Shown in pieces: positions 34,583 to 54,877 of a stretch of DNA of 57,502 nucleotides. The position numbers and the translations under genes are program-made. The notes beneath the pieces are model-generated. The model ran no database searches, had not been told where the DNA came from, and saw nothing but the letters and a program-made list of their open reading frames with translations. The stretch's first letter is position 1; every line of letters starts with the position of its first letter. The DNA comes from an uncultured Lachnospiraceae bacterium (lineage in GTDB: Bacteria; Bacillota; Clostridia; Lachnospirales; Lachnospiraceae), in assembly GCA_902780385.1 (NCBI GenBank), contig CACZFF010000027.1, forward strand, positions 1-57,502, in the 5' to 3' direction.

Positions 34583-34611
34583 AGTTTAATCGGAATCAAA
34601 TAAGCTGTCAA
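34583..34611 (-). promoter_or_regulatory. promoter of the ABC-F gene (minus strand)
   Basis: On the minus strand a perfect TTGACA (34606-34611), 17 bases and TAAACT (34583-34588). It lies just outside the left target-site duplication of the mobile element at 34663. Confidence 0.65.
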
Positions 34612-34662
34612 CGGCTGACAGGGGATGGAGACATTGAACCGTCCCCTTCTGTCTCCATAGTC

Positions 34663-34790
34663 GTTACTATTCACAGTCCCTTCGGAACTGTGATAGTAAC
34701 TTGCGTTTGCCCATTCCAAATGCTCTTCGAGCATGGGCAAACGCCGTTTTACTCGGGTTCACCTCGAACGCGGAGACTGTGAATAGTAAC
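34663..34790. mobile_element. 128-bp MITE-like element with perfect TIRs and 8-bp target-site duplication
   Basis: The left end GTTACTATTCACAGTC (34663-34678) and the right end GACTGTGAATAGTAAC (34775-34790) are exact 16-bp inverted repeats. CCATAGTC stands directly outside both ends (34655-34662 and 34791-34798), as expected of an 8-bp target-site duplication. A third, inverted copy of the terminal motif (ACTGTGATAGTAAC, 34687-34700) makes the left end a hairpin of its own. The core folds into GCGTTTGCCCAT/ATGGGCAAACGC. There is no room for a transposase, so it would be non-autonomous. It lies between the divergent ABC-F and rex promoters. Confidence 0.85.
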
Positions 34791-34827
34791 CCATAGTCCA
34801 ACTGTCTGCCATATACGTTATGTATAT

Positions 34828-34856
34828 TTGACATGAAAAAAAACTAACCTTATAAT
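34828..34856 (+). promoter_or_regulatory. consensus sigma-A promoter of rex
   Basis: TTGACA (34828-34833), exactly 17 bases, TATAAT (34851-34856): a full consensus promoter, 37 bases after the mobile element. A possible Rex half-site (TTGTGAA at about 34875) lies downstream, but no complete palindrome is visible. Confidence 0.9.
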
Positions 34857-53115: not shown

Positions 53116-53392
53116 ACGTCTATGCGTGCGAGCACGCCCATCCGCGCAGCCGCTTGATCGAACTTTTACGGTAAACTGCCATGGCAGCGTGACTGCCACC
53201 ACCAGAAGAGTAAAAGTCGATTGCTCCGCATGGCGAGGCCATGCTCTCGCAATCGCCACCATGTATTCGACAATCGCTCCGCTTGCCTTGCTGCGCGTAG
53301 CTTTTTGTCTCATACATGGTGGTCCGATCAAATGTCTGCACGTCTGTGCGTGCGAGCACGCCCATCCGCGCAGCCGCTTGATCGAACTTTTA
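53116..53392. repeat. 53-bp direct repeat pair enclosing a cruciform core
   Basis: The same 53-bp sequence, starting ACGTCT(A/G)TGCGTGCGAGC, lies at 53116-53168 and 53340-53392 with one difference. The 171-base core contains GCATGGC/GCCATGC inside CGATTGC/GCAATCG (53218-53255). An 11-bp inverted pair CCACCATGTAT/ATACATGGTGG (53256-53266, 53312-53322) is also present. No coding frame fits. The copy next to proB comes within 24 bases of its start. Confidence 0.85.
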
Positions 53393-54364: not shown

Positions 54365-54435
54365 CCGGACAGGAAATAAAAATCCGGCCCAAAAGCGAAG
54401 CATTTATCCTGAAGCGGGAATGAATCAGTGAAAAG

Positions 54436-54518
54436 ACCTCGCATTTAAGGCGGGTCTGTACCGTGACAGCAGTTAATAAGCTACTGTACAGACCCACCTG
54501 AAACGCGAGGTGTTTTTC
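54436..54518 (+). terminator. composite terminator after proB, overlapping the repeat element
   Basis: ACCTCGC and GGGTCTGTAC (54436-54461) pair with GTACAGACCC and GCGAGGT (54486-54511), followed by GTTTTTC. The left arm lies outside the 54480 element and the right arm inside it, so insertion appears to have built or completed the terminator. Confidence 0.6.
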
Positions 54519-54671
54519 GCGCGCTTTTCGCGAAAAACCCGAGTTAAACGGCGAAAATCGCGCGCACAGCGCATTCCCGAGTTAAACGGCGAAAATCGCG
54601 CGCACAGCGCATTGGAATGCGATTTTCGCAACGTTACTTGTACACGCCCTCGATAGGGCGTGTACAGTAAC
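54480..54671. mobile_element. 192-bp MITE-like repeat element (copy 1)
   Basis: The left end GCTACTGTACAGACCC and the inverse of the right end, GTTACTGTACACGCCC, agree at 13 of 16 positions. GTTAATAA stands immediately outside both ends (54472-54479, 54672-54679), as an 8-bp target-site duplication would. Inside are a TTTTTCGCG/CGCGAAAAA hairpin, two 38-bp tandem units (54538-54575, 54576-54613) and a 20-bp terminal hairpin (54630-54674). A second copy begins at 57404. It has no coding capacity. Confidence 0.8.
54538..54613 (+). repeat. 38-bp tandem duplication inside the element
   Basis: Two identical 38-bp units opening CCCGAGTTAAACGGCGAAAA. The copy at 57404 has one unit only (57462-57499), so the number varies between copies. 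Confidence 0.95.
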
Positions 54672-54877
54672 GTTAATAATTCTTCGCATTGAATTGTATT
54701 TTGCATACCATTTACGGGGGATTTGTGATAAACTGATGTTGAGTCAATTTCTCGACCACAAAGCATCGCAAACAGTATTTGAGATCCGGCATATCCCGGG
54801 TTGATCGGCACACTACAGACACAAGGGTGATTTTTTACAGATGCAATAGCCGGATGGCTGCGGAAAGGACGTGCTAA

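Follow-up and report, generated by a model that had tools for sequence, protein, structure and literature searches.

Bacterial MITEs have been described as non-coding sequences of 70-300 bp with terminal repeats of 15-30 bp, found beside genes and folding robustly, and a transposase that recognises their ends is able to move them (PMC3733652). Folded members of this class are well known, among them RUP, NEMIS, bcr1 and ERIC (PMC3733652, PMC3446304, PMC2267715). The element examined here resembles RUP, NEMIS, ERIC, YPAl, Nezha and EFAR, as that source presents them, in its size, terminal repeats, lack of coding capacity, position next to genes and ability to fold (PMC3733652). Judged by their descriptions, it is set apart from other MITEs in two respects: its apparent partner is IS66, and its core varies by compensatory change among six subfamilies in the genus and in other genera as well. 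The bcr1 repeats of the Bacillus cereus group are described as intergenic, MITE-like sequences of about 150 bp that have a conserved fold and often lie in UTRs (PMC3446304, PMC2267715). Compared by description, and in different hosts, bcr1 and the present element are alike in being repeats of some 150 bp with MITE-like features and a conserved fold. The bcr1 repeat has a duplication and is not known to have a partner.

REP elements are described as short extragenic palindromes thought to be spread in trans by a RAYT (IS200/IS605-like) transposase, and the likeness to the present element lies in exactly these two features, short palindromes and a transposase acting in trans (PMC3733652). REP elements differ in carrying GTAG or CGTC at one end, the GTAG types going with tyrosine HUH enzymes, whereas the present element has true terminal repeats and 8-bp duplications. 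Among IS66 elements, ISPpa5a and ISPpa7 of Paracoccus are tabulated with 8-bp repeats (PMC3281130). The IS66 insertion sequences of the genus studied here have GTTAC/GTAAC-type terminal repeats and 8-bp duplications, as does the element; unlike them, the element has no transposase gene, and neither its hairpin 2 nor its hairpin 3 turned up in the IS66 elements that were examined. No account of a MITE driven by IS66 in Lachnospiraceae was found in the open-access literature. The common view of MITEs is that they are remains of insertion sequences with nothing important inside. Here the interior keeps its fold by paired change, and the IS66 elements that the ends match differ from one subfamily to another, which raises the question of whether a folded core is needed for movement by a DDE transposase or is an RNA doing something.

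The window, that is, the whole stretch of 57,502 nucleotides analysed (contig CACZFF010000027.1 of assembly GCA_902780385.1, from an uncultured Lachnospiraceae bacterium), carries the element in the spacer between an ABC-F gene and rex, which were recognised by profile matches to NF000355 (1.2e-136) and NF003990 (3.1e-92), respectively. The initial annotation had described a 128-bp non-autonomous element with perfect 16-bp terminal inverted repeats, an 8-bp target-site duplication and a third, internal copy of its end. The repeats and the duplication are exact in the letters (Table 1); the internal copy is present, inverted and one base shorter, and can close a 38-nt hairpin; and the exact ends, the duplication and the many genomic copies described below bear out the non-autonomous element itself. 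It is the sole perfect 16-bp inverted repeat within 200 bp anywhere in the window, it has a perfect 8-bp duplication, and 100 first-order Markov simulations produced no such 16-bp inverted pair. The feature beside rex is a mobile element without genes of its own. This copy is a short one: full-length copies of its subfamily measure 154 bp, and it is without 26 bp of hairpin 3.

Table 1. Coordinates of the element beside rex, of the predicted promoters around it and of the other family members in the window (positions are those of the window)
Feature	Coordinates	Strand	Basis or remark
Predicted ABC-F gene promoter, TTGACA-17-TAAACT	34583..34611	-	10/12 match
Left copy of 8-bp target-site duplication CCATAGTC	34655..34662	.	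sequence letters
Element-family member, 128 bp, short form of 154-bp subfamily	34663..34790	+ (hairpin 1 first)	letters, model
Left 16-bp terminal inverted repeat GTTACTATTCACAGTC	34663..34678	+	first 15 bases are those of the IS66-A right end
Hairpin 1 (can form; 38 nt), left end plus inner inverted end copy, one base shorter	34663..34700	+	
Hairpin 2, with 7-nt 5' bulge ATTCCAA at 34713-34719	34703..34744	+	
Hairpin 3 remnant (ACTCGGGTT / CACCTCGA)	34745..34774	+	26 bp of full-length copies missing at ~34759/34760
Right 16-bp terminal inverted repeat, reverse complement of GTTACTATTCACAGTC	34775..34790	-	
Right copy of 8-bp target-site duplication CCATAGTC	34791..34798	.	
Predicted rex promoter, TTGACA-17-TATAAT	34828..34856	+	12/12 sigma-70-type match; starts 30 bp past right duplication
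Second family member, other subfamily, with internal direct duplication	54480..54671	-	own 8-bp duplication GTTAATAA at 54472-54479 / 54672-54679
Third family member, cut by contig end	57404..57502	-	

A genome-wide search for the 16-bp end, which the annotation had proposed, found many copies and disposed of the possibility that the element has no others in its genome. At no more than two mismatches the end had 30 matches in its own 3.30-Mb genome (G000), against one for a reversed control pattern. A MAFFT alignment of 27 sequences was used to construct a covariance model, R1, which in G000 gave at least 91 matches at E<=0.01 and at least 74 at E<1e-7 among the 150 of 953 candidates that were scored; more than 74 such copies are probably present, and at least one of the weak matches repeats a listed copy read on its opposite strand. 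Three of the 74 copies sit in this window. Elsewhere copies are most often 150-156 bp long, most close copies of the window element measuring 151-154 bp, and diverged relatives in other species of the genus keep the same layout. Two copies have unusual structures. In L014 (G000:C14:4919-5111) the right end is tandemly duplicated, with two right ends 25 bp apart; in L214 (genome G449) the left half resembles one subfamily and hairpin 3 another, by eye, a mosaic that suggests recombination between subfamilies.

Within the genus, 11 of 61 genomes, G000 included, score copies, with 13 to at least 49 matches each when 49 candidates were scored per genome; under strict filters the remaining 50 had no R1 match at E<=0.01. 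The ten positive genomes besides G000 are the ten that score best in a nucleotide search with the abc-f/rex region, and the family therefore looks confined to one group of close species. At the level of the order, R1 matches at E<=1e-4 occurred in 6 of 295 genomes. For the bacterial family a core model, R2, was used, with 10 candidates scored per genome; it matched 14 of 397 genomes and, in a search by genus, 13 of 334 genera, each count including G000. The relatives in other genera have the same layout, ends of the form GTTAC...GTAAC or GTAAC...GTTAC, and 8-bp duplications; a script with a fixed centre, which missed truncated loci, found such duplications at 19 of 30 loci, three of the 19 being from G000. 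One hairpin-3 pattern occurred in none of the viral contigs, no plasmid match was found for three elements, and one of these three had no phage match.

The annotation had anticipated an 8-bp duplication around each copy. At model-defined ends, unadjusted, this is so at 8/8 for 47 of 87 rows and at 7/8 or 8/8 for 68 of 87, a count in which the window copy appears twice (as L103 and as WIN). Control comparisons with re-paired flanks reached 7/8 or better in 1.0%. When the joined flanks of copies with duplications of at least 7/8 were compared with every fetched locus, no clean empty site appeared among these loci. The sole match, L173 against L191, falls at the same place in G170 and seems to be produced by the duplication itself.

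At the abc-f/rex spacer, the element lies between divergent ABC-F and rex promoters, as had been claimed, these being predicted from sigma-70-type matches (Table 1); five promoter-like sites were found in the spacer against 1.1 in shuffles. Both predicted promoters have similar letters in several fetched relatives, and the spacer between them varies. The annotation had raised the possibility that the element might insulate or modulate rex; it is upstream of both predicted promoters, and so should be in neither mRNA started there. An identical position in all relatives was an outcome that the annotation had named as speaking against transposition, and the position is not common to all of them. 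Insertions into the same spacer in G010, G026 and G028 differ in position, orientation or subfamily, and the insertions in four species, G000's own included, are apparently independent. No intact element was detected by the model in the spacer of nine genomes (G076, G009, G061, G079, G017, G077, G021, G081 and G068), G061 giving one weak match of 10.5 bits; by eye, G079 has no more than a hairpin-1-like piece and G017 a right-end piece. Contig ends interrupt the G008 and G013 loci. None of the fetched abc-f/rex relatives showed a single intact CCATAGTC; their spacer is too diverged for an empty site with a single CCATAGTC to be shown. These repeats settle in spacers between divergent promoters, of which abc-f/rex is one example. 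The G026 spacer is interrupted by a contig break that has an IS66-B-type end to either side, and both flanks read TGATAGCA.

Searching the end also led to a full-length insertion sequence with matching ends, for which the annotation had advised looking, and it belongs to the IS66 family. This element, IS66-A (C11:51609-54354, 2,746 bp), has ends that match at 16/17 and encodes a protein of 587 aa with matches to PF03050 (9e-14) and NF033517 (1.2e-43); the latter, at 149.7 bits, is below the 180-bit curated cutoff, which marks it as a divergent IS66 protein. The right end of IS66-A coincides with the end of contig C11, and a second copy bridges contigs C53/C37, where 99/99 letters agree on each side and AGGGGCAG stands on both flanks. 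A second insertion sequence, IS66-B (C5:88376-91003), has 25-nt ends that are 88% complementary and the duplication CAAAAATT. Each of the two was assembled complete just once in G000. The duplication is 8 bp long in IS66-A (at C53/C37), in IS66-B and at seven further IS66 loci, the same length as in the element. From other species of the genus, 14 IS66 loci were retrieved. Seven of them are bounded by inverted ends and carry an 8/8 duplication; the other seven are fragments, lie at contig ends or are without a closed pair.

The window-type left end shares 15/15 terminal bases with IS66-A, as scored on a sister copy (L079) whose first 16 bases are identical to those of the window copy, and a cluster-3 element shares 23/24 bases with the IS66-B right end. 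The window copy belongs to cluster 1. When 16 bases are compared, this cluster fits the G000 IS66-A and a related IS66 of G013 best, and over 24 bases its left end fits an IS66 of G003 slightly better than IS66-A (17.2 vs 16.2). For clusters 3 and 6, the best fit of the right ends over 24 bases is to the IS66-B of G000/G026 (means 20-21 of 24). Left ends of clusters other than 1 single out no one IS66, and cluster 2 fits none well. Taken over these comparisons, the element ends appear to correspond to IS66 elements by subfamily, if not perfectly. At L124:1692-1863 a decayed family member directly adjoins the IS66-B insertion, and the IS66-B-type end in G026 also adjoins an element. Both G000 IS66 elements contain a small upstream ORF (L013:2849-3304 and L124:3800-4174) with similar starts (MSIVRYTNKKTG / MGIVKYKNPKTG); the 151-aa product of the IS66-A one has no Pfam match above cutoff.

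Across the family, hairpin 1 is formed by the left end and the inner copy of that end, hairpin 2 carries a 5' bulge (ATTCCAA, ATGCTAA, ATGCACA and similar) between two variable stems, and the base of hairpin 3 is conserved as CTCGGG / CACCTCG. When 86 distinct genus rows were scanned mechanically, 35 showed a hairpin-2 bulge of exactly 7 nt, 17 one of 6 or 8 nt and 3 one of another length, and 31 had no qualifying stem; the bulge is therefore given as about 7 nt and not as strictly constant at 7. In other genera a convincing stem and a bulge of 7 or 8 nt were present together in 12 of the 17 examples examined. With an alignment that had not been fitted to the structure, both sides had changed at 14 of 43 pairs. 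None of 500 shuffles reached its covariation score, and further pair types did not rise above shuffles (213 of 500). In a wider alignment, which was fitted to the model and hence leans towards its structure, both sides had changed at 28 of 43 pairs, and doubly changed cells numbered 228, compared with 63 in shuffles; again 0/500 shuffles reached the score. Shifting the partner by 1-3 columns removed most of the covariation signal in both alignments. Stems change at a rate of 4.3% and unpaired positions at 8.2%, and the five sequences tested fold far better than their own shuffles (z -6.4 to -10.8). The sequences show a three-hairpin core conserved by paired changes.

In a full cluster 1 copy and in the window copy, the fold of lowest energy pairs the two outer ends with each other and lacks hairpin 1, and RNAalifold without a supplied structure also pairs the outer ends; hairpin 1 and end-to-end pairing are thus alternatives. 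A search with 4,227 Rfam models of 17 loci and the window placed no element at gathering score. One sub-threshold match, of mir-2329, lies on hairpin 1 of L052 (28.5 of 90 bits). No element was assigned to a known RNA family: the matches listed at E<=1 or E<=0.1 are RNase P and tRNA beside elements, together with sub-threshold miRNA, snoRNA and HTH-XRE models.

We propose that the family consists of non-autonomous elements, MITEs in the broad sense, which IS66-family transposases recognising GTTACTATTCAC-type ends would move in trans, each transposition duplicating 8 bp of the target. We regard this explanation as very probably correct. Mobilisation by IS66 in particular appears well supported by the sequence comparisons, and we infer that these IS66 transposases cut and paste the element.

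The initial annotation had suggested ISL3 as one family that might drive the element, and ISL3 does make 8-bp duplications. If such a family, rather than IS66, were responsible, IS66 might well be missing from some genomes that carry the element, and with two query proteins no IS66 protein was found in 6 of the 11 element-bearing genomes (G009, G010, G017, G061, G076 and G079). Conversely, IS66 matches occur in 7 of the 50 genomes without elements (G003, G019, G030, G063, G064, G075 and G077), five of which contain closed elements with GTTAC- or GTAAC-type ends. This mismatch is weak counter-evidence, because two query proteins were used and assemblies may lose repeats. The full-length elements with these ends in G000, recovered in searches that covered the end and IS66 proteins, encode IS66-type proteins, have 8-bp duplications and share up to 23/24 terminal bases with the element; ISL3 therefore yields to IS66 as the driver, and movement by another family that duplicates 8 bp is highly improbable. 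The IS66 connection could also mean that the element is an ordinary IS66 deletion derivative, whose hairpins are of no importance. Its ends are common to IS66-A and IS66-B, and in a cluster-5 element all 38 nt of the hairpin-1 stretch align with the left end of IS66-B, at 76% (E=0.009), so that hairpin 1 could itself be an IS66 end. However, the similarity lies mainly in the outer 15-24 bp and the rest of the core has no match in IS66, which leaves a plain deletion derivative unsupported; covariance model and BLAST did not find hairpins 2 and 3 in nine bounded IS66 elements, barring short chance-level matches, and the same layout recurs in other genera with other end types. An origin of this kind is quite improbable. 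An apparent core inside an IS66 of G075, a model match of 18.8 bits at its right end, proved to be an unrelated long terminator-like hairpin plus the shared end. The element works like a MITE and falls within the broad definition; the narrow one, a deletion derivative of an insertion sequence, is not supported by the IS66 elements compared.

Two further explanations concern the paired changes themselves. Template switching can correct imperfect palindromes, and the stems might stay complementary through this mutational process and not through selection; the near-symmetric behaviour of the strands and the few wobble pairs fit such correction at the DNA level. It is nonetheless a rather improbable account, leaving unexplained both the recurring unpaired bulge between two variable stems and the conservation of the hairpin-3 base across genera. 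The core might instead be a structured RNA that serves host or element and is transcribed from the strand that has hairpin 1 last, a reading that we consider unlikely, if well short of negligible. It draws on the strong covariation, on the bulge of about 7 nt in hairpin 2 and on two strand signals. Among one-sided stem changes within subfamilies, A-C exceeds G-T by 44 to 22 (p=0.009 per copy), and, counted per event at three cluster cut-offs, by 41 to 24 (p=0.046), 32 to 19 (p=0.09) and 19 to 6 (p=0.015); A-C on the plus strand is G-U on the other, hence the hint at the strand with hairpin 1 last. Where an element lies between co-directional genes, the sense strand is this one in 22 of 31 cases (p=0.029). 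Against an RNA stands the rarity of G-T pairs: about 3,500 stem cells contain 50 G-T and 76 A-C, and G-U would be expected to be common on one strand if each copy served the host as RNA. Moreover, mean folding energy is equal on both strands, the minus strand being lower in 40 of 81; no element reaches an Rfam gathering score; and the window copy is outside both predicted transcripts. The strand tests are themselves weak, as related copies are not independent and the orientation counts, from 53 usable loci of 76, depend on rough gene calls, the wider counts failing to reach significance (3' side p=0.07, 5' side p=0.12). With weak skews and no strand difference in folding energy, a clear strand for a functional RNA did not emerge.

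Returning to an element moved by IS66, we read its conserved core as a sign that selection acts on how well the element itself spreads, an RNA role being possible, and we infer that the core is kept for the element's movement or tolerance and not for a service to the host by each copy. The hairpins would help the element to move, perhaps by being extruded close to its ends or by binding the transposase or a host factor, and the core would have been carried by different IS66 end types over time; in this part alone we have modest confidence, somewhat short of an even chance. A broader reading, possible and on the doubtful side, is that of a long-lived mobile structured family in one bacterial family. 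Its core, with the bulge of about 7 nt in one hairpin and the fixed CTCGGG/CACCTCG base of another, would be an independent functional module, not cut from a transposon, and would act in mobility or as an RNA favouring spread, with the ends changing to follow whichever IS66 lineage is active.

The two other family members of the window lie towards its far end (Table 1). Beside the second, at about 54430-54470, is what looks like a further degraded end fragment. The contig stops inside the third, such that repeats of this kind appear to break assembly. Contigs C11, C53 and C37 likewise terminate at or within IS66-A. Elsewhere in the window, a Clostridiales-1 RNA (RF01699) was matched at 53211-53392 on the minus strand, with 83.6 bits against a gathering score of 48.
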